Of a stretch of DNA of 64,000 nt, positions 16,050 to 39,058 are shown one piece after another. Numbering within the stretch: the stretch's first letter is position 1; every line of letters starts with the position of its first letter. The notes below the pieces were generated by a model. That model saw only the letters and a list, made by a program, of their open reading frames with translations, was not told the origin of the DNA and did no database searches. This DNA is from Leptolyngbya sp. 'hensonii' (GTDB lineage Bacteria; Cyanobacteriota; Cyanobacteriia; GCF-001939115), in the NCBI RefSeq assembly GCF_001939115.1, contig NZ_MQTZ01000041.1, positions 250,816 to 314,815 on the forward strand, written 5' to 3'. Made by a program: the position numbers and the translations under genes.

Positions 16050-16565
16050 TTAATTCTGTTTCGGTGCGCCGATACTTTGATCCTCTAGCTGTTGCAATTT
16101 CAGACTAACCTTGGCCCGCACGGGGGTGCCACTGGGTAAAAACAGGGTCAGTTGATAGCTGACGGATTCAATAAAGCAACGTCTCAAATACCGCTGTCGA
16201 TCGCCCCAGACAAAGCTGTAGAGGGGGGGGCGGCGCACCCGGGCATACCAATCATAGGCATTGAAATCCAGGCCAGCCACAATTTTGTTAATGTAGACTT
16301 CCATCACGCTCTGACCGGTTTCAAAGGTGTCATAGATAATGTTGTCGATGCTAATTTTGATCGGGTTGGGACCGGCGAAGCTCACTTTTTTCAGCAGACT
16401 GGCTGTGCGCGTATTCCCTTCCACATTATTGTTGACTTCCACGCTCCGTTCAAAATTCAACTGACTGGGGTTGAACTGAAATTCGATCGGTTGAACGGTG
16501 GGGCGCTCCCCTATGGCAGGGACGAGTCTGGCTTTGACAAGGGTTGTGGCTGGGCTGTAGACCAT
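16050..16565 (-). CDS. CIS tube/baseplate adaptor protein (Afp7-like N-terminal domain)
   Basis: A 171-aa protein carrying PIEFQFNPSQLNFERSVEV, KKVSFAGPNPIKISIDNIIYDT and SFVWGDRQRYLRRCFIESVSYQLTLFLPSG in order (motifs split). This is the pattern of the contractile-injection-system tube protein N-terminal domain found in Afp7-like proteins, which connect the inner tube to the VgrG hub. The LysM domain that often follows is absent: the protein stops shortly after RAKVSLKLQQLED. It sits 24 bases upstream of the spike gene in the same operon. Confidence 0.82.
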   Translation of the reverse strand: MVYSPATTLVKARLVPAIGERPTVQPIEFQFNPSQLNFERSVEVNNNVEGNTRTASLLKKVSFAGPNPIKISIDNIIYDTFETGQSVMEVYINKIVAGLDFNAYDWYARVRRPPLYSFVWGDRQRYLRRCFIESVSYQLTLFLPSGTPVRAKVSLKLQQLEDQSIGAPKQN

Positions 16566-16596: not shown

Positions 16597-19500
16597 TTAT
16601 CGATTCAAACGGTCTGAACGGTACAATCGCCCGTGGCGCTCTCGCTCCACTTCCAGGCGTTGTCGGAGCAATCCATAAATTTCACGGGCCAGAAACTCCA
16701 GATTTGCGACATCTTCCGTGCGCTGTTCCGGGGACAGCGCTTCAGTAATAGCCTGAGAAACAACGGTTGTCACCGTGGCATCGGCTGCAGCTATGCTGGT
16801 TGGGCTTTGATTTCCCAAGGCATCTTTGTACTTGATGATGTCCGAGTATTGTGCATCTCCCGGTTGATTGGCATCTGCAGCCAGACCGACCATGGGGTCT
16901 GCTTTCTGGATGGGGGTCAGCTCAAAGGGGAAGCCGCCATCCCCGATCGGTTGCACATCTGGAGCCCGGATCGTCAAATCAAAGTCTGACTCAGACTGAT
17001 GGTCTTCTCGATAACGCTGGACGACGGGCAGACTGGCTGGAGCAGGCGCAGACCCTGACTCTCCTCCCCTGGGTGATCCGGGTGCCTCGGCTGCACTGGC
17101 CCCCAACAGTTCCTCAATACTGGACCAGGAATCCGGGATCTCACCTCCGAGTCCACCTGCAAACTTCGCACCAGAGAACTGGCTGGGCAGCAGGCTAGGG
17201 ATGGGGGTGACGGATTTGGCCTGCACGATCGGCAGGGAGCCTGGGGCAGGAGGCTCTCCCTGAGCGTCTAGTTCAGGGCTGGTCTGGGGCCAGGACTCAC
17301 CGACAGCTTCTCCGATCGGAGTCCCCTCCATGGGTTCCAGACCATCCTGGAGGGAAAAAGAGTCGGCACTCTGCTTGGTCTGAGCAGTTCCTTCTCCCAG
17401 GGGATGCTGATGGCCCAGATTTTGCAGCACGGTGGGTAATTCGGGCAGGGGGGCTCCGGCGGCGAGGAGTTGGGCCACAGTGCGATCGGTCCCGGAGGCT
17501 GGCTCGGATGGGGCTGTCTCTAAGCTCCCAGAGGCAACAGGAGAGGCAGGAACCCGTTGAATCCTGGGAGTTTCTACTGGTGTCCTCGGTTCAGCTTGGT
17601 CAGCAGCAGGAGTTCTGACTTCTGTAAATCGCTGGATTCCAGCTCCTTCGCTGACTGGAGAGTGTGGGACATCCCGTGAATCGGATGCTGTCCCAGTCTC
17701 GGCAGGGGTGTCTGCTGATCCAGCCTGTCGGTCCGATCGATCTGCTGCCAATGCCTGGATCGCTGCTGGCTCAGCCCCTGGCATTGATTCACGTCCTACC
17801 GTTGATTGAGTGACGGTGGCAGGGTCGTTCTGCTGTTCCGTTGGGAGTTCCGCAAAGTGCTGAATAGCTGTTGAGCCAGGCTCTGACGCAGTGGTAGAAC
17901 TTGCTGGGGGTTCGGTAGCAGTGGCAGGGATTTCTGCCAAGGGTTGAATGACTTCTGGTTTAGCGCCTGGGATACTGACGGGACTTTCCCTCGCATCAGG
18001 AGTAGTGGGAGCAGGGCTGCCTGGGAGATGGGCAGGGCTTACGGCGAATGGCTGGATAGCACCGGGTTCAGGCCCTCCAGATTCAGACCCTCCAGATTCA
18101 GCGGCAGTTACCGTTTGCCCCTGTGGGACTACTGGACTTTCTGAGAATGACTGAATAACTGCTGGCTCAGCTTCTGATGGGACTGCAGGACTTTCCGTCG
18201 AATCAAGGGTAGTGGGGGCAGGGCTTGTGGCGAATGACTGGCTAGCACCGGGTTCAGACGCTCCAGATGCAGTGGTGGTTGCCGTTTGGTCTTCCAGGGT
18301 GGGTGGACTGGCTGCGAGGCGCTGAATGCCTGCTGGTCCAGCTCCAGGGCTTGCGGTTGATTCAGGCACAGTTGCGGATCCATCTTGAAGATCGGCAGGA
18401 CTTGCCGTGAATGACGGAATGGCTACCGATTCCGTCTCTGGGGTAGTTGTAGGGACTTCCGCCGCTGCAGCCATGGTAGCTGTTTGGTCTTCCAGGGTGG
18501 GTGGACTGGCTGCAAGGCGCTGAATGGCTGCTGGTTGAGACCCTCCAGATTCAGATCCATCTCCAGATTCAGCAGCAGTTGCGGCTGGTGCATCTGGCCG
18601 GTTGGCTGAGACTGCGGCAAACCGCTGAATGCCTGGAACATCCCCCAGAGGAGGTTCTGTTGAACTCCAGGCACGTTCACCTGCAGGCTCATCTGCTGGG
18701 TCACCCGATCGCCCGGAGTCAGGTCGATCGGGTGTGATCTCTGCGGCCAACCGCTGTATACCTGGCCTTACTGGAGCAGGAGTTCCATCGGGGGGAGGGA
18801 AGGTTGTTTCTGGATCGGGTTGAATCCCTGCAGTCTCAAGGCCTGTGAGGGTAACCGGCCCATCCGCTGCTGGCCGATCGCCCTCGTCTGCCTGGGGTTG
18901 AACCGCAGTTGGGTCAGCCGATGCCATCAATGGGGACTGATCGGGAGAGGGGAGAGATTCTGCCCCAGCCAAGCGCTGAATCCCTGACTCGGCATTGGCA
19001 GAAGGAGAACTGGTCCGGTCTGGAGCGTTGTCTGTTGTTTCGACATCGGGAAATGGAAGGGGAGCTGGCTCAGTTGGTGGAACCGTTGCAGAATCAGCGG
19101 AAAATTCAATCCCCCTATCCTCTGGCGATCTTTGGATCCCGATCGTCTCTGTGAATCCAGTAGAACTGGCCAGGTCAGGGGCAGCGGATGCTTTATCCCA
19201 TGATTGAACCTGGGATGGCTCAGAAATAGGGGTGGACTCAGGGGCTTCTCCAGAATCAGAACTGGCCGGTGCTGAAAATCGTTGGACAATAGAGGGGTCG
19301 GAAGCCACAGCCGCTTCGAACGAGCTCCCAGTCTCATCTGTTGCCGCTTCGAATCGTTGCAGGGCTGCATCAACTGAAGACTCTACAGGGCTATCAGCAG
19401 GTTCTGGAATAGCATCTGCTGGTGCTGCCACTTGTTGTACTGGAGCATCAATCGGCAGATTTGTGGTGTCTGCTGGGAGTAGGGCGGCATCCGTGGAGGA

Positions 19501-22281
19501 TTCGGCAGGGCTGTCAGCAGGTTCTGGAATAGCATCTGCTGGTGCTGCCACTTGTTGTACTGGAGCATCAATCGGCAGATTTGTGGTGTCTGCTGGGAGT
19601 AGGGCGGCATCCGTGGAGGATTCGGCAGGGCTGTCAGCAGGTTCTGGAATAGCATCTGCTGGTGCTGTTAATCGTTGTTGTGCAGCATCAATTGGCAATA
19701 CTGGAGAGGGATTGCCAGGACGATCGCCACCTTCAACGAGATCGATCGATCTCTGAATGCCGCTGTCTTCTCCCGCCGATACTGACTCCGGCATCACTGG
19801 CCCATCGGTACCCAGATCAGGGATTGTCGCAGCCGCCTCCGATCGGAAACCTTGCCCCCCAGGCTGATCAGGGCCAGCGGCAACAGGGCCAGTGGGAACA
19901 GGAACGGGAGGGTTCTCTCCTGGAGCCATGGCAGGATCAGCCGAGACAGGCGGAATCCTGGGAGGGGCTCCACCTGCGATCGCGATATCTGGGGTTTGCT
20001 GGATCGCTGCAGGTCTCTCCCCAGGTGTTGACGGTCGATCAGGCACGATCGCTGGGATTGGCATCGTTGTCTCTGTCGGTCCACCACTATTAGCCCTGGC
20101 TGCGATGCGGGCATCTGGGCTGATGCTCTCCGGGAAGGATGGCATCGGAGGAGTGGGAGGAGAAGGGGTTGGGGTTACAGAAGCAATGGTTTCTGCTGCA
20201 GATTGAATGGGTGGCGTGACATTGACATCAGTTGGGGTTACAGAAGCAATGGTTTCTGCTGCAGATTGAATGGGTGGCGTGACATTGGCATCAGTTGGGG
20301 TTACAGAAGCAATGGTTTCTGCTGCAGATTGAATGGGTGGTGTGACATTGGCATCAGTTGGGATTTCTGGTTCAATGGCTTCTGCGAAGGATGGAACGAC
20401 TGTAGGGAAGTCAGGAGTAGAGGGGGCTGTCGGTTCATTGCCTTCCGGGAAAGATGGCTCAGCCAGGAATTCTGGGCTGTCCAATCGAATAGCAGGTCTC
20501 TCGATTTCCGATCGGACTTCTGGTTCTGGGCTTTCAGCTAACCGCTGAATTCCAGATTCAGCGGTTCCTGGGTCTGCAGGCAGGTGATCAGCAACTGTGG
20601 GGGGAGGGGCAGCAGCAGACTGGCGCTGGGCAGGCCGATCGGCTTTAGGTTGAACGATCGGGGATGATTCTGGCGATCGGGGTTGCCTGGAAAAAAGTTG
20701 CTTGAACCATCCGCCCAGGGTTTGCTGGGGCTGAGGGGCAGTTCCAGATGCAGGGGGTTTGGCCTCAGTTGGCGGTACAGGTTCTGGGGCAGCAGGTTGT
20801 GTTGGTGTTTCAGTTGTGGCGGGCGTGACCAAACCGGCGTCCTTGGCCTGGATAGGTTGTGGCAGGCTGACCGGCTCTGAAGCAGGGGAACTGACAGGCT
20901 CAGAGCGGACACCCAGAGGGGCTGCCGCTCCTGACATCTCCGCTGGTGCAGGTGATGGTAGACCTTCGCTGTCCAGGCTTTTTGTGGCCAATTGGGCAGA
21001 GGGATTGTCTGTCCCAGGGAACCCCTGCGGAGGAGACTGGGAGGCGATCGCTGGAACCTCTGGGGCTAACTGGGCAGAGGGATTGTCTGTCCCAGGGAAC
21101 CCCTGTGGAGGAGACTGGGAGGCGATCGCCAGGGTTTCTGCTGCAGGGGGTTGGGAAACTGCTGTGGTCCCAGGGGTTTCTGGTCCAGGGATCGATGCCT
21201 GGAACGGACCTGTGGCCAGAGGAGCCTCAGGAGGAATGTCTGGTGATCGGGGGGCGATGGGGGGGGAAACTGGCTCAGCCGCTGGTTGAATTGACTCAGT
21301 GGCTCTGACAGCCCCCAAGTCCTGGGTCGAAGTCGTCGGTATCGGGTCCATCTCCGGCTGAGTTGACTCAGATCCTTCGGGTTGCTGGACTGCCTCAATT
21401 GGGGGAGAGGGCGAAAAGCTGGTTCCCTGCGGCCAGGAGGGAGCTGATTGAACGGGCTCAAGCGGGGGGGACATGCTGCGGTCAGCCAGCGGGGAGACTG
21501 GATTTTCTGTTCCAGAATTGACCAAAGTGTCAGAGTCTGGAGCAGGGGCTGCCTGGACGATTGGCGGGGTCTCTGCCGCGATCGCATCCAGAGCAGGCTG
21601 AACTGCTGCTGGGGCTGGACTGACATCTGCTGCCAGATCCATCGCCCCTGTTGCAGCGACCTCGGGCTGTTTCTCCAGGCTTGGGGACGAGGTGTCTGGA
21701 TCTCTATCCTGGGCTGGTTGTAGAGGGGCTGCCCCAGATGGCTGAGCCGTGGTAGACGGGTCAGCAAGGAGAGCTTCTGGAACAACAGCCTCGCCTGTGC
21801 TGGCCGGTCTGGGTGGAAGGATATCCGGGGGCAGAGCAGGCTGGTCTATGCGATCGAAGACTGGTGGAACGATCGGGGCGTTTCCTGGGGATGAAAGCTT
21901 GGCCTGTGGAGCAGGCAAGGCAGGGGGCGCTGCCGCAGGCATAGCCACCGCAGGAGCGGCATCAGCCCGAAACTCCCCGTCCCCTGTGTCCCGGTTCTCA
22001 GGCAAGCTGATCTCCGTCGGGCGACTCTCCTCAGCAAAGGGAAAATCCTCAAACAGATTGCCCAGGGGTCGGTAGCCTGACAATCCCTGGGGAAAAAAGG
22101 TCGAGAAGTTGAAGCCAGACAGGGGTCTTGCCCCCAACGGAACCAGGAATTTAGGTTGCAGGAAACCAGAGCCCAGGGGGGGTGGCGGTAGCAGTGGATT
22201 TTTCAGGCCCAACGGCTCCTCTAGAGGGAGCATCTCCTCCACGTCCTGAGAGCTCGGACCTGCCTGTGGGGAATCCGCCAT
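16597..22281 (-). CDS. 1894-aa disordered repeat protein of the tail-like operon
   Basis: The longest gene in the window; I do not recognise a family for its body. The N-terminus (1-95) is Pro/Leu/Phe-rich (FLQPKFLVPLGARPLSGF). Residues about 100-1750 are extremely rich in Pro, Ala, Ser, Thr and Glu with no folded-domain pattern. About twenty copies of a short motif, [IV]Q-[RPSHA]-[FL]-[AST] (IQRLAE, IQRFAA, IQPFAV, IQHFAE), recur through it. Three near-exact tandem duplications are visible at 19390-19670, 20171-20340 and 20994-21130. The last 130 residues are different: acidic and helical, ending YGLLRQRLEVERERHGR, which resembles the C-terminus of the 134-aa protein at the start of the tail genes. 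It lies 7 bases after the tube gene. A scaffold, tape-measure or cargo role is possible; none is proven. Confidence 0.75.
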   Translation of the reverse strand: MADSPQAGPSSQDVEEMLPLEEPLGLKNPLLPPPPLGSGFLQPKFLVPLGARPLSGFNFSTFFPQGLSGYRPLGNLFEDFPFAEESRPTEISLPENRDTGDGEFRADAAPAVAMPAAAPPALPAPQAKLSSPGNAPIVPPVFDRIDQPALPPDILPPRPASTGEAVVPEALLADPSTTAQPSGAAPLQPAQDRDPDTSSPSLEKQPEVAATGAMDLAADVSPAPAAVQPALDAIAAETPPIVQAAPAPDSDTLVNSGTENPVSPLADRSMSPPLEPVQSAPSWPQGTSFSPSPPIEAVQQPEGSESTQPEMDPIPTTSTQDLGAVRATESIQPAAEPVSPPIAPRSPDIPPEAPLATGPFQASIPGPETPGTTAVSQPPAAETLAIASQSPPQGFPGTDNPSAQLAPEVPAIASQSPPQGFPGTDNPSAQLATKSLDSEGLPSPAPAEMSGAAAPLGVRSEPVSSPASEPVSLPQPIQAKDAGLVTPATTETPTQPAAPEPVPPTEAKPPASGTAPQPQQTLGGWFKQLFSRQPRSPESSPIVQPKADRPAQRQSAAAPPPTVADHLPADPGTAESGIQRLAESPEPEVRSEIERPAIRLDSPEFLAEPSFPEGNEPTAPSTPDFPTVVPSFAEAIEPEIPTDANVTPPIQSAAETIASVTPTDANVTPPIQSAAETIASVTPTDVNVTPPIQSAAETIASVTPTPSPPTPPMPSFPESISPDARIAARANSGGPTETTMPIPAIVPDRPSTPGERPAAIQQTPDIAIAGGAPPRIPPVSADPAMAPGENPPVPVPTGPVAAGPDQPGGQGFRSEAAATIPDLGTDGPVMPESVSAGEDSGIQRSIDLVEGGDRPGNPSPVLPIDAAQQRLTAPADAIPEPADSPAESSTDAALLPADTTNLPIDAPVQQVAAPADAIPEPADSPAESSTDAALLPADTTNLPIDAPVQQVAAPADAIPEPADSPVESSVDAALQRFEAATDETGSSFEAAVASDPSIVQRFSAPASSDSGEAPESTPISEPSQVQSWDKASAAPDLASSTGFTETIGIQRSPEDRGIEFSADSATVPPTEPAPLPFPDVETTDNAPDRTSSPSANAESGIQRLAGAESLPSPDQSPLMASADPTAVQPQADEGDRPAADGPVTLTGLETAGIQPDPETTFPPPDGTPAPVRPGIQRLAAEITPDRPDSGRSGDPADEPAGERAWSSTEPPLGDVPGIQRFAAVSANRPDAPAATAAESGDGSESGGSQPAAIQRLAASPPTLEDQTATMAAAAEVPTTTPETESVAIPSFTASPADLQDGSATVPESTASPGAGPAGIQRLAASPPTLEDQTATTTASGASEPGASQSFATSPAPTTLDSTESPAVPSEAEPAVIQSFSESPVVPQGQTVTAAESGGSESGGPEPGAIQPFAVSPAHLPGSPAPTTPDARESPVSIPGAKPEVIQPLAEIPATATEPPASSTTASEPGSTAIQHFAELPTEQQNDPATVTQSTVGRESMPGAEPAAIQALAADRSDRQAGSADTPAETGTASDSRDVPHSPVSEGAGIQRFTEVRTPAADQAEPRTPVETPRIQRVPASPVASGSLETAPSEPASGTDRTVAQLLAAGAPLPELPTVLQNLGHQHPLGEGTAQTKQSADSFSLQDGLEPMEGTPIGEAVGESWPQTSPELDAQGEPPAPGSLPIVQAKSVTPIPSLLPSQFSGAKFAGGLGGEIPDSWSSIEELLGASAAEAPGSPRGGESGSAPAPASLPVVQRYREDHQSESDFDLTIRAPDVQPIGDGGFPFELTPIQKADPMVGLAADANQPGDAQYSDIIKYKDALGNQSPTSIAAADATVTTVVSQAITEALSPEQRTEDVANLEFLAREIYGLLRQRLEVERERHGRLYRSDRLNR
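19390..19670 (-). repeat. 120-bp tandem repeat in the giant gene
   Basis: The word GTTCTGGAATAGCATCTGCT begins at 19401, 19521 and 19641, exactly 120 bases apart. The first two periods are almost identical over their whole length and the third is partial. Each unit encodes 40 residues that include PADAIPEPADSP and TNLPIDAPVQQVA. Confidence 0.95.
20171..20345 (-). repeat. 63-bp tandem repeat in the giant gene
   Basis: GGGGTTACAGAAGCAATGGT starts at 20171, 20234 and 20297, a period of 63 bases (21 residues, core SAAETIASVTPTDANV). Copies differ at only one or two positions, showing recent duplication. Confidence 0.95.
20990..21130 (-). repeat. 78-bp tandem duplication in the giant gene
   Basis: TGGGCAGAGGGATTGTCTGT occurs at 20993 and 21071, 78 bases apart, and the surrounding unit repeats with a few changes (26 residues; core SQSPPQGFPGTDNPSAQLA). 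Both copies contain or abut a GCGATCGC palindrome. Confidence 0.92.
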
Positions 22282-22288
22282 AGATCAA

Positions 22289-22843
22289 TTAAGAGCTGAA
22301 GTAGCCAAGTCGATCGCGCTGCTGCAACTGGGTAATCCCGCCCCCACCAGAGTTAGCAATCACTTTCAGCCCTTCGTAAGCCAGGGTCAATTCTTCGATC
22401 GCCACAGCATTGGCATCTGCTTTCAGGGCAGGGGCCTTCCAGTTGATCGGTACAGCTCCCAGCAACGTCCAACACTGCATGGTTTGACCCGCTTGATTAA
22501 AGATGAGGATGTTAATATTGCGGCGCAACCCTCTACCTCCAGTCATAGCTTGCTGCATCCAGCCCCAGAAAATCAAACTGTTGGTTAAGCCCCGGCTCAG
22601 GGTGACTTCACTGAATGAAGAAGGCCCCAGCAGGATCCGCTCCTGATTATTCACGCCCCCTTCCTGAACTTTGGTGGTTGTAATCTTAACCCCCAGGCCC
22701 TGACAACCTGTAAACCAGGCTGTGAGTGTACTTTCCATCTCCACATAGAAACGGTTACCCGTTACATAGTTGAGGGCATAGGTGCTGCTGCTGTTCGTCT
22801 TATTGTTTGTGGTTGGGGGCTTATTATTCGTGTTTGAATACAT
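22289..22843 (-). CDS. gp19-like inner tube protein
   Basis: A 184-aa protein. After a flexible Asn/Thr-rich start come RFYVEMESTLTAWFTGCQGL, GPSSFSEVTLSRGLTNS, FWGWMQQAMTGG, RRNINILIFNQAGQ and PINWKAPALKADANAVAIEE (split), the order seen in T4 gp19-type tube proteins of phage tails and contractile injection systems: a beta-barrel ring subunit that stacks into the inner tube. Only one tube gene is present; known eCIS loci usually have two or more plus sheath genes. Its start overlaps the stop of the upstream gene by one base (TGATG), so the two are translationally coupled. Confidence 0.85.
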   Translation of the reverse strand: MYSNTNNKPPTTNNKTNSSSTYALNYVTGNRFYVEMESTLTAWFTGCQGLGVKITTTKVQEGGVNNQERILLGPSSFSEVTLSRGLTNSLIFWGWMQQAMTGGRGLRRNINILIFNQAGQTMQCWTLLGAVPINWKAPALKADANAVAIEELTLAYEGLKVIANSGGGGITQLQQRDRLGYFSS

Positions 22844-36277: not shown

Positions 36278-36898
36278 ATGACTGAGCAAACTCAGGCGCA
36301 TCCTGAGGAGATCACCCGTGCCGATATCGAAATCAGGCTTCTGGGCAAGGCATTGCAGGATGCGACGTTCAAGCAAACGTTGCTGTCTGACCCGGTTAAA
36401 GTCTGGCAGCAGGAAATGGGGGACACTGTCCTTAAGGATTTGCAGCTTAAAATTCTTGAGGAAAACCAGGATACGCTTTACCTGGTTCTCCCCTGGCAGG
36501 ATGAGACCCTGAGAGAGGGACTCAAAAAACGCCCGAAAGCAATCTGGAAAGAAGAGTTTGGGACTACTCGACTGGAAGGGTACGTGGTGCGAGTGGTAGA
36601 GGAACCCCCTGGTTTTTTCTATCTGGTCTTACCCTGGGCCGATCCTGACTTGCCCCAACGAATTCCTGAACTACCACCGACGCTCCCAGTGGACCCCAAT
36701 GCTCCCCAGCAGCCCACAACCCCAGTTCGCAATCCATTTCAGCTCAAGCGCACTGCCCCTAAGACGAAGCTGGGCCGGATATCCCGGCGGTTGGAAAGTT
36801 GGTTGGCCCTGAGGGTCCGGTCCAATCCGATCGTCGTTGCTATCCTGCGTCCCATTCAAAAGGGCCGCTCCTGGTTCCAGTTCTGGCAACGTCTTTAA
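36278..36898 (+). CDS. Protein with two tandem NHLP-leader-like domains
   Basis: A 206-aa protein; GAGAG lies 8 bases before the ATG. Residues about 19-73 read LLGKALQDATFKQTLLSDPV, then QQEMG and LQLKILEENQDTLYLVLP. This is the layout of the nitrile-hydratase-alpha-like leader peptides (NHLP) of many cyanobacterial RiPP precursors. Residues about 78-128 repeat it: LREGLKKRPKAIWKEEFG, then YVVRVVEEPPGFFYLVLP. No double-Gly cleavage site or Cys/Ser-rich core follows; instead there is a Pro-rich linker and a basic tail (KTKLGRISRRLESWLALRVR). So it is probably a leader-derived binding protein rather than a precursor. It lies 18 bases upstream of the pseudokinase gene on the same strand. Confidence 0.7.
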   Translation: MTEQTQAHPEEITRADIEIRLLGKALQDATFKQTLLSDPVKVWQQEMGDTVLKDLQLKILEENQDTLYLVLPWQDETLREGLKKRPKAIWKEEFGTTRLEGYVVRVVEEPPGFFYLVLPWADPDLPQRIPELPPTLPVDPNAPQQPTTPVRNPFQLKRTAPKTKLGRISRRLESWLALRVRSNPIVVAILRPIQKGRSWFQFWQRL

Positions 36899-36916
36899 TA
36901 GTTGTGTTCCGCTCCT

Positions 36917-39058
36917 ATGGTTGACCCTACCTATCGGCAGTATTCGTGTCTCCAGTCCAATCCCCTGGGCTGTCGTCAACTGCAGCAGGGTAACTCGCGA
37001 GATCCAGGGGCAAAATACTGTGCCACCTGTAACTTTCCGTCCCTGCTTAACCTGAAAGCTGAGATCCAGGGAAATCGGGGGGTTTACGAGGTCGATCAGT
37101 TTCTGGGAACCCGGGGGGCGGGGCGACTGTATCAGGGTTGGTTGCTCCCTGATCGCAACCCGATCGTCATTCGGGAGTACTTGCTGCCAACCCGTACATT
37201 CAACGCACAGGAAACTCGTCAGCGGCGGCAACTGTTTGCCCAGATGTCCACCCTGAAGCTGTCCGATGGTCGGGTGCAGGATTTCCGTTTGCTGATGCCG
37301 GATGAGGCGATCTCCGATCGACAGGAGGAGCGTTGTTACCTGATCACGGCAGGGAATTTGAATGCCCTGCCAACGCTGCGATCGCACCTGCAGCACCAGG
37401 GAGCCATGACCGGCAATCAGATCCGGCGTGTTCTGCATCAGGTTTTACAAACCCTGGAATTTCTCCATAGCCAGAAATTCTCCCTGCCCAATGGGCAATT
37501 GAAGCAGGGAATGACCCACAGCAATCTCAGTCTGGATACTTTGCTCCTGAGGCAGAAGGAAACGGAGCAGTTGGCCAGCTCTACCACCCAAAGTCGGTTT
37601 ACGGACGAAAACTTCCTCATCTATCTGTGCGATCTGGCGCTCTGGGAAAACCTGTTCCATTCCCCTACAGAGTCTTTTCAGGATGCAACCGTGCTGCAAG
37701 AACTGGTGGCTCTGGGGCAGGTGGGTTTTTACCTGCTGGTGGGGAGCGATCGGGATCCTGAGGGTGAAGCCCTTTATCCGAAAGATGGGAAATATTGGGC
37801 GGGTGTGTCTCCTGCTTTTAAGGACTTCTTGCTGAGTTTAATGGGCCTGGAACAGCCCTTTGTCAGTGCAGAGGCAGCCCGTCAAGCTCTGTTGCGGCTT
37901 CCTCCCGAGCCTTCTACTGCGATCGGATCTCTGCCCGTTCAGGTCAAACGCGGAGAGAAACGGCCAAAATTGCCTTTTCCCTGGCGCAAGCTACTGCTGT
38001 TATTGTTGACCATCCCCCTGCTGGGTCTTCTGTTCTGGTGGCTCAGCACCGTTTTACGTCCCAAAGCTACGGCACGGAGTTCCACCCTGCTTTGCTGCGC
38101 TCAAGAGGTGACGGGGGTGCCGAAGGGAAAATTCATTTACACGGGAGTGGAGAAAAGCACCTGGAGTATTGTTCTAGAGCAAAAGAACCTGGTGGAACGA
38201 GGCAAGCGACTGGACAATGCTTTGCAAGAGTTGCAGCCTGAGCTGGAGTTACGGTATCGGCCCCAGGTTTCCATTCAGCAAGCCTTTGAACAGGTTCGTT
38301 CAGGACGGGTAGAGTTTCTAGTTACAGGTCTGGCCGAGCAGGCCGCGATCGACCTGAAAGCAGAACCCTTTGCCTATGATGGGCTGGTGGTCTTTGTGGC
38401 CTTCAGCTATAGCCAGCGTGATCGGGGTCTGCCTCGCTTCCTGAGCGGTCAGATTACGTTTGAGCAACTGCGCCGACTCTATACCGGCGAGGTGCAGAAC
38501 TGGCGAGACCTGGGGGGACCGGATTTGCCTGTTAAGCTTTACATTCCCCCAGAGATAGAAGCAATCAGCGTTTTTGAGGAACGGGTGCTGCAGAGTGAGG
38601 ATCGGATTCGCCGCTTCCGAGAGTTACAAAACAGGCTGATTGCGACCCAGCCCACCTTCGACACGCTGCGGCAGGTGATTCGAGACTTTGAACAGGATCA
38701 GGTAGGCAGTATCGCCTTCGGTACCCTGAGCCAGGTCTTCGGCCAGTGTTCTGTCTATCCCTTAGCCCTGATCCGCGATCGAGATTCCAATCCAGAGCAG
38801 GCGTTGATTGAGAACAGTGGAGAACCGATCAGCCCGATGACGGACCTGTGTGATGCGAAGGGAAGTTACGATCGCAATGTGGAAGCCTTTCAAACAAACC
38901 GTTATCCTCTGGCCTACCCCCTAGCAGTCGTCTATCTGAGAGATAATCGGCGGCTGCCCGTCGGACACAAGTTTGCCGAGATTCTTCAGACCTTGGAAGC
39001 CCAGAAGCTGCTTAGCCAGACTGGACTGGTTCCCTTACAGCCTCTGCCGAAGAATTAA
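36917..39058 (+). CDS. 4-Cys pseudokinase - membrane helix - periplasmic binding domain fusion
   Basis: A 713-aa protein from ATG 36917. Residues 10-45 hold a 4-Cys element (Cys at CLQSNPLGC and CATC), as seen in front of cyanobacterial Ser/Thr kinases. The kinase-like region (about 55-350) lacks catalytic residues: the glycine loop is FLGTRGAGRLYQ, the ATP-Lys is Arg (VIREYLL), HRD is replaced by THSNLSLDTLL and DFG by CDLALWE. A single helix at about 360-380 (LLLLLLTIPLLGLLFWWL) is followed by a PstS-like binding domain with FLSGQITFEQLRRLYTGEVQ and NWRDLGG. It may couple an external ligand to a cytoplasmic partner, perhaps the NHLP-like protein encoded just upstream. Function is inference. 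Confidence 0.78.
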   Translation: MVDPTYRQYSCLQSNPLGCRQLQQGNSRDPGAKYCATCNFPSLLNLKAEIQGNRGVYEVDQFLGTRGAGRLYQGWLLPDRNPIVIREYLLPTRTFNAQETRQRRQLFAQMSTLKLSDGRVQDFRLLMPDEAISDRQEERCYLITAGNLNALPTLRSHLQHQGAMTGNQIRRVLHQVLQTLEFLHSQKFSLPNGQLKQGMTHSNLSLDTLLLRQKETEQLASSTTQSRFTDENFLIYLCDLALWENLFHSPTESFQDATVLQELVALGQVGFYLLVGSDRDPEGEALYPKDGKYWAGVSPAFKDFLLSLMGLEQPFVSAEAARQALLRLPPEPSTAIGSLPVQVKRGEKRPKLPFPWRKLLLLLLTIPLLGLLFWWLSTVLRPKATARSSTLLCCAQEVTGVPKGKFIYTGVEKSTWSIVLEQKNLVERGKRLDNALQELQPELELRYRPQVSIQQAFEQVRSGRVEFLVTGLAEQAAIDLKAEPFAYDGLVVFVAFSYSQRDRGLPRFLSGQITFEQLRRLYTGEVQNWRDLGGPDLPVKLYIPPEIEAISVFEERVLQSEDRIRRFRELQNRLIATQPTFDTLRQVIRDFEQDQVGSIAFGTLSQVFGQCSVYPLALIRDRDSNPEQALIENSGEPISPMTDLCDAKGSYDRNVEAFQTNRYPLAYPLAVVYLRDNRRLPVGHKFAEILQTLEAQKLLSQTGLVPLQPLPKN

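Follow-up and report, generated by a model that had tools for sequence, protein, structure and literature searches.

A membrane pseudokinase family linked to cyanobacterial contractile injection systems, and its rare tandem NHLP-domain neighbour

Intracellular contractile injection systems (CISs) assemble their particles in the cytoplasm, and how these are brought to a membrane and triggered is still an open question. In the literature searched, the only characterised membrane accessory of such a sort is CisA of Streptomyces, whose gene belongs to the CIS cluster; its cytosolic N-terminal part includes a Cys-rich region and is joined by one helix to an extracytoplasmic domain of the solute-binding type (PMC12237407, PMC10020575). 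Contraction in situ and CIS-mediated cell death both require CisA, which has been suggested to bring particles to the membrane, perhaps as a sensor of stress (PMC12237407, PMC10020575). The paper describing the thylakoid CIS (tCIS) of Anabaena ascribes anchoring to Cis12 and Cis13 and mentions no kinase-type protein, and in a survey of eCIS loci the only kinases mentioned are two-component partners or activators of regulators (PMC8213781). Haft and colleagues described the leader families NHLP and Nif11 in one study (PMC2887384); NHLP leaders have a rigid fold and bind partner proteins (PMC12455567).

Here, a stretch of 64,000 nucleotides from Leptolyngbya sp. 'hensonii' (GCF_001939115.1, contig NZ_MQTZ01000041.1, 250,816-314,815), referred to below as the window, was analysed (Table 1). 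A first-pass annotation had drawn attention to adjacent genes encoding a 206-aa protein with tandem NHLP domains and a 718-aa protein with four cysteines, a kinase-like domain, a membrane helix and a PstS-like domain, and both reading frames are indeed present and adjacent. The spacing of 18 bases given in that annotation holds if translation of the second gene begins at the ATG (36917), but shrinks to 3 bases if the TTG (36902) is the start. Homologues were sought in 390 genomes of the class Cyanobacteriia, and the 718-aa family was aligned, and its gene neighbourhoods read, in 60 relatives (loci L076-L135).

Table 1. Features of the window, with positions counted from its first nucleotide.
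Feature	Position	Strand	Evidence or remark
Tandem NHLP-domain protein, 206 aa, ATG start, no core peptide	36278..36898	+	TIGR03793, 74.6 bits; orthologue in G436 (L077:10840-11451), 45% identical
NHLP copy 1, residues 13-80	36314..36517	+	52.4 bits alone
NHLP copy 2, residues 73-123, without first helix of the model	36494..36646	+	TIGR03793 match
Conserved basic C-terminal tail, residues 154-206, PKTKLGRI..RLE..SNPIVV.ILRPI	36737..36895	+	Conserved in G436 orthologue
4-Cys/pseudokinase/one-helix/PstS-like membrane protein, 718 aa	36902..39058	+	TTG start; alternative ATG at 36917
4-Cys motif, residues 16-43 (C..C, CxxC), probably a zinc ribbon	36947..37030	+	Intact in 36/60 relatives
Pseudokinase domain, approximately residues 57-335, catalytic Asp replaced by Asn	37070..37906	+	Alignment, profile match
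Membrane helix, residues 363-385	37988..38056	+	Hydropathy; single segment in 54/60 relatives
PstS-like (PBP) domain, approximately residues 402-713, without ligand motifs, Cys 616 and 650 invariant	38105..39040	+	Profiles, alignment
CIS tail-tube protein (gp19 type)	22289..22843	-	PF06841, 119.4 bits; in other genomes, orthologue directly follows 718-aa family gene
Small CIS-module protein, 135 aa	22843..23250	-	Similar gene adjoins tube in several loci
Low-complexity protein of 1894 aa, encoded between the tube and Cis7-like genes	16597..22281	-	Same place and similar N-terminus in other loci
CIS_tube / Cis7-like protein	16050..16565	-	PF19266, 61.4 bits
VgrG-like spike / hub (Cis8-like), 809 aa	13596..16025	-	PF04717, 93.2 bits

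Full-length relatives of the 718-aa protein are present in 94 of the 390 genomes, and the carriers are spread over many families. A CIS tail-tube gene was found in 92 of the 94 carriers as against 64 of the 296 non-carriers (Fisher test, p = 8e-44), and the full-length family in 89 of the 107 genomes with at least three tube genes as against 5 of the 283 others (p = 1e-62), the p-values being uncorrected for relatedness. Two carriers have no tube match, one of these genomes being 70% complete, and 18 genomes with at least three tube genes have no full-length copy of the 718-aa family at the threshold used; some of these 18 (G002, G423, G491) hold diverged or split copies adjoining a tube gene. 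CIS structural genes lie within about 9 kb in 31 of the 60 loci, with tail-tube, sheath, Pvc16-type cap, VgrG-like spike, CIS_tube, eCIS_core and AAA genes as neighbours across the set, and CIS neighbours occur in nearly every part of the family tree. The orthologue of the window's tube gene follows the family gene on the same strand at less than 6 kb in 15 loci, and at 0.1-1.3 kb in 13, while in a deep clade (L119, L122, L130, L131, L134, L135) the family gene sits inside an operon of sheath, tube and spike genes. Within the window, the spike/Cis7/tube module (13.6-23.3 kb) is on the other strand, 13 kb from the 718-aa gene. A second module, on contig C47, holds sheath, three tube, cap, AAA and eCIS_core genes. 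Co-occurrence and gene order thus tie the 718-aa protein firmly to cyanobacterial CISs, as an accessory dedicated to them. This near-obligate companionship changes the likeliest identity of the device, for which the first-pass annotation had suggested signalling or sorting. A literature search for a pseudokinase or Nif11 protein associated with contractile injection in cyanobacteria found nothing and, since neither the Anabaena paper nor the eCIS survey goes beyond the mentions noted above, the CIS link of the family appears to be unreported in the literature searched.

The 1894-aa protein encoded within the window's CIS module contains repeated IQR-type segments, and its place in other CIS loci is taken by proteins of about 380-2500 aa, several of which have a similar N-terminus (PLG..LL.PP.LG..FLQPKF..PLGA). 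Elsewhere, TPR, pentapeptide-repeat and two large membrane-type families (clusters c9, c11, c16 and c19) recur beside the pseudokinase gene (L082-L086, L101, L106, L107, L113, L115, L118, L124); these are possibly further CIS accessories.

The kinase-like domain had been described as lacking the Lys, HRD and DFG residues. In the window protein, for which the Pkinase match is weak (15 bits), the VAIK Lys is replaced by Arg, H-R-D by H-S-N and DFG by D-L-A, so that the loss of Lys and of HRD stands but the DFG Asp is retained, as in 56 of the 60 relatives. The HRD Asp, the catalytic residue expected of an active Ser/Thr kinase, is Asn in 55 of the 60 and Asp in none, and the VAIK Lys is kept in 43, with Arg in the window protein and in its counterpart in genome G436. 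Judged by the alignment, the family is a pseudokinase family throughout. Its most degraded kinase domains, with VAIK Lys and DFG Asp lost too, are encoded in CIS operons at L134 and L135 (G341, G406).

Since the 718-aa protein has the layout of CisA with the addition of a pseudokinase, it is best read as a CIS membrane adaptor and trigger. Like CisA, it is encoded with CISs, as indicated by the 92 of 94 genomes and by gene order, and a single helix separates a Cys-rich part, with the four cysteines intact in 36 of the 60 relatives, from a domain of the solute-binding type, on presumed sides of the membrane. In its full form, in which a single-pass adaptor and trigger has the tandem-NHLP protein for a cytosolic partner in one lineage, we regard this reading as about evenly balanced between right and wrong. 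We infer the topology, the contacts of the pseudokinase with the NHLP protein and of the device with the particle, the sensing and the firing as follows. The Cys-rich dead kinase part would be a cytoplasmic docking scaffold for the CIS baseplate or an assembly component, and the degenerate PstS-like part would face the exterior or the thylakoid lumen and sense a stress-related ligand or partner there. A change in this ectodomain would then recruit the particle or license its firing, as has been suggested for CisA of Streptomyces. In the window lineage, the core-less protein with its tandem NHLP domains and basic helical tail would probably bind the cytosolic half as an adaptor, the NHLP folds serving here in protein-protein recognition only.

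The 718-aa protein could instead regulate CIS expression or assembly, signalling rather than docking, with an extracytoplasmic sensor and pseudokinase that work with two-component or FHA proteins, a layout resembling that of PpkA/Fha. In one clade (L087, L099, L100, L104, L108, L110, L117, L121, L125) the family gene does have an FHA gene and a histidine kinase/response regulator pair at its flanks, a gene for a 1254-aa histidine kinase ends 173 bases upstream of the window pair, and eCIS loci are known to occur beside two-component genes (PMC8213781). However, kinase activity is not expected of a family in which the catalytic Asp is found in 0/60 relatives, and most parts of the tree have CIS structural neighbours but only a portion has the FHA and two-component ones. 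On balance, a regulatory role of this kind seems rather unlikely.

A genome-neighbourhood search, proposed as a check in the first-pass annotation, recovered the pair in G436, a cyanobacterium of another family, in which the 206-aa orthologue lies directly before the 718-aa gene at a spacing of 3 bases, as in the window pair with the TTG start. A profile of the 206-aa protein and this orthologue gave exactly two full-length matches in the 390 genomes, in the window and in G436. In each of these two genomes it is the only NHLP gene and immediately precedes the 718-aa gene, and the family tree places the two 718-aa genes as sisters (96% SH-aLRT). Since both full-length matches are adjacent to sister 718-aa genes and are 45% identical, the pair is rare but real. 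Neither outcome that had been set beforehand against the annotation, an NHLP profile that fails to match or a pair adjacent in no relative, was found. An NHLP partner is present in just 2 of the 94 carriers and is therefore not essential for the function of the 718-aa family. In G436, the pair comes after cap, AAA and eCIS_core-cluster genes, all in the same orientation, from which it is separated by a 279-aa ORF that reads as methyltransferase-like. The four eCIS_core-cluster genes that precede the pair there (one Pfam-confirmed), together with such genes nearby in 13 of the 60 loci, would suit a pair that sorts or loads eCIS_core cargo through recognition of cargo tails by the NHLP domains, but this is improbable, given that most carriers have no NHLP partner and that no recognition motif was identified.

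The membrane helix and PstS-like domain were both borne out: hydropathy gives one hydrophobic segment at residues 363-385, PBP_like_2 is matched at 28.9 bits against a cut-off of 27, and solved PstS proteins are matched by profile with a best E of 4.9e-12. By profile the domain shares the fold family of PstS (TIGR02136, PF12849, PDB 4q8r), but it differs in falling far below the PstS cut-off (27.3 against 206.6 bits for TIGR02136), in being tethered behind a pseudokinase and in its want of ligand motifs, those of the GST, GSGTG and SDGGT types being present in the genome's own PstS-like paralogues and missing from the aligned members of the 718-aa family. Since these motifs are missing, phosphate binding of the usual kind appears unlikely; the invariant Cys 616 and 650 are compatible with an exported domain that holds a disulphide. 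A sensor of phosphate or nutrients that merely travels with CIS genes is what the PstS-like domain might suggest, but the missing motifs and the near-obligate co-occurrence with CISs make this very unlikely. AlphaFold single-sequence models of the two proteins (pLDDT 46 and 33) were too poor for use.

The 206-aa protein matches the NHLP leader model TIGR03793 in two stretches (74.6 bits, E 4.1e-21, cut-off 50.9), in keeping with the two copies first noticed. When each half was scored alone, as had been advised, the first remained above the cut-off with 52.4 bits but the second missed it with 24.1 bits (E 2.3e-5). Like NHLP leader peptides, the protein thus fits the profile above its cut-off, but unlike them it has two tandem copies, neither a Gly-Gly site nor a core peptide, and a basic tail in its C-terminal 53 residues that is conserved, not hypervariable, in the G436 orthologue; the absence of core and Gly-Gly site and the basic tail had all been correctly described. 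As to RiPP enzymes, LanM-type enzymes had no match in the genome, in a search that gave no positive control and is therefore a weak negative, and the best match to the NHLM transporter (447.7 bits) is below the cut-off of 853.3. The gene is also the sole NHLP gene of its genome by profile search. A degenerate or unusual RiPP precursor with an unrelated neighbour, to which a match above the cut-off of a model defining RiPP leaders would point, is extremely unlikely in view of these results and of the recurrence of the same neighbouring gene in another family, in line with the annotation's rejection of a precursor. The annotation's further suggestion, that the NHLP domains now serve as binding elements of a device for signalling or sorting, is plausible.

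The tail had no match elsewhere among the loci examined, and homology with the N-terminal extensions found in other 718-aa relatives was rejected (hhalign probability 1.3%). A search of genome contigs gave only two 24-residue matches, both in Bryobacterales. Apparent tandem NHLP frames in G068, G036 and G011 (L037-L040) proved to be nitrile hydratase alpha subunits (VCTLCSC motif) and not relatives; TIGR03793 matches such subunits as two separate stretches, mimicking a tandem NHLP protein. A genuine tandem-NHLP protein of 246 aa in G312 (L036:8221-8961) adjoins SDR and GMC-type oxidoreductase genes, with neither CIS gene nor pseudokinase recognised nearby.

In 17 of the 60 loci, the 718-aa family gene has beside it or in its vicinity a gene, usually divergent, for a 69-aa Nif11 protein (PF07862). 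The two that were scanned score 55-61 bits, and these neighbours have neither Gly-Gly site nor core; the protein ends SEIPG(I/L), as at L091:3206-3415. The presence of NHLP and Nif11 proteins beside the same membrane protein suggests that leader folds have been re-used as binding modules, although the Nif11 adjacency could instead reflect the abundance of Nif11 genes in cyanobacteria. More broadly, it is possible, if somewhat doubtful, that the membrane trigger of cyanobacterial CISs belongs to a class of its own, in which a pseudokinase receptor carries a degenerate solute-binding ectodomain, and that folds of RiPP leaders were recruited as its soluble partners, NHLP in one lineage and core-less Nif11 elsewhere, a non-RiPP use of both.

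A near-obligate and widespread membrane pseudokinase of cyanobacterial CISs offers a testable counterpart of CisA in another phylum. The family may explain how CIS-linked cell death is regulated in cyanobacteria, and it offers a function for peptide-free proteins of the leader type (NHLP, Nif11). PpkA/Fha control of type VI secretion combines a kinase-type domain, a membrane helix, an extracytoplasmic domain and an FHA partner; the 718-aa protein has the same three elements, with an FHA partner in one clade, but its family has lost the catalytic Asp and its contractile machine is the CIS. The Anabaena thylakoid CIS (Cis1-Cis19) is of the general kind beside whose genes the 718-aa family is encoded, but the family is absent from the published components, the anchors there being Cis12 and Cis13. 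CisA (SCO4242 of Streptomyces coelicolor) is the closest in layout, being CIS-linked and having one helix, a Cys-rich region before it and a solute-binding-type domain, and action on the host's own membrane would be a further feature in common. It differs in its mostly disordered N-terminus with no pseudokinase, in an extracytoplasmic domain of about 150 aa as against about 310 in the 718-aa protein, and in having no NHLP or Nif11 partner reported.
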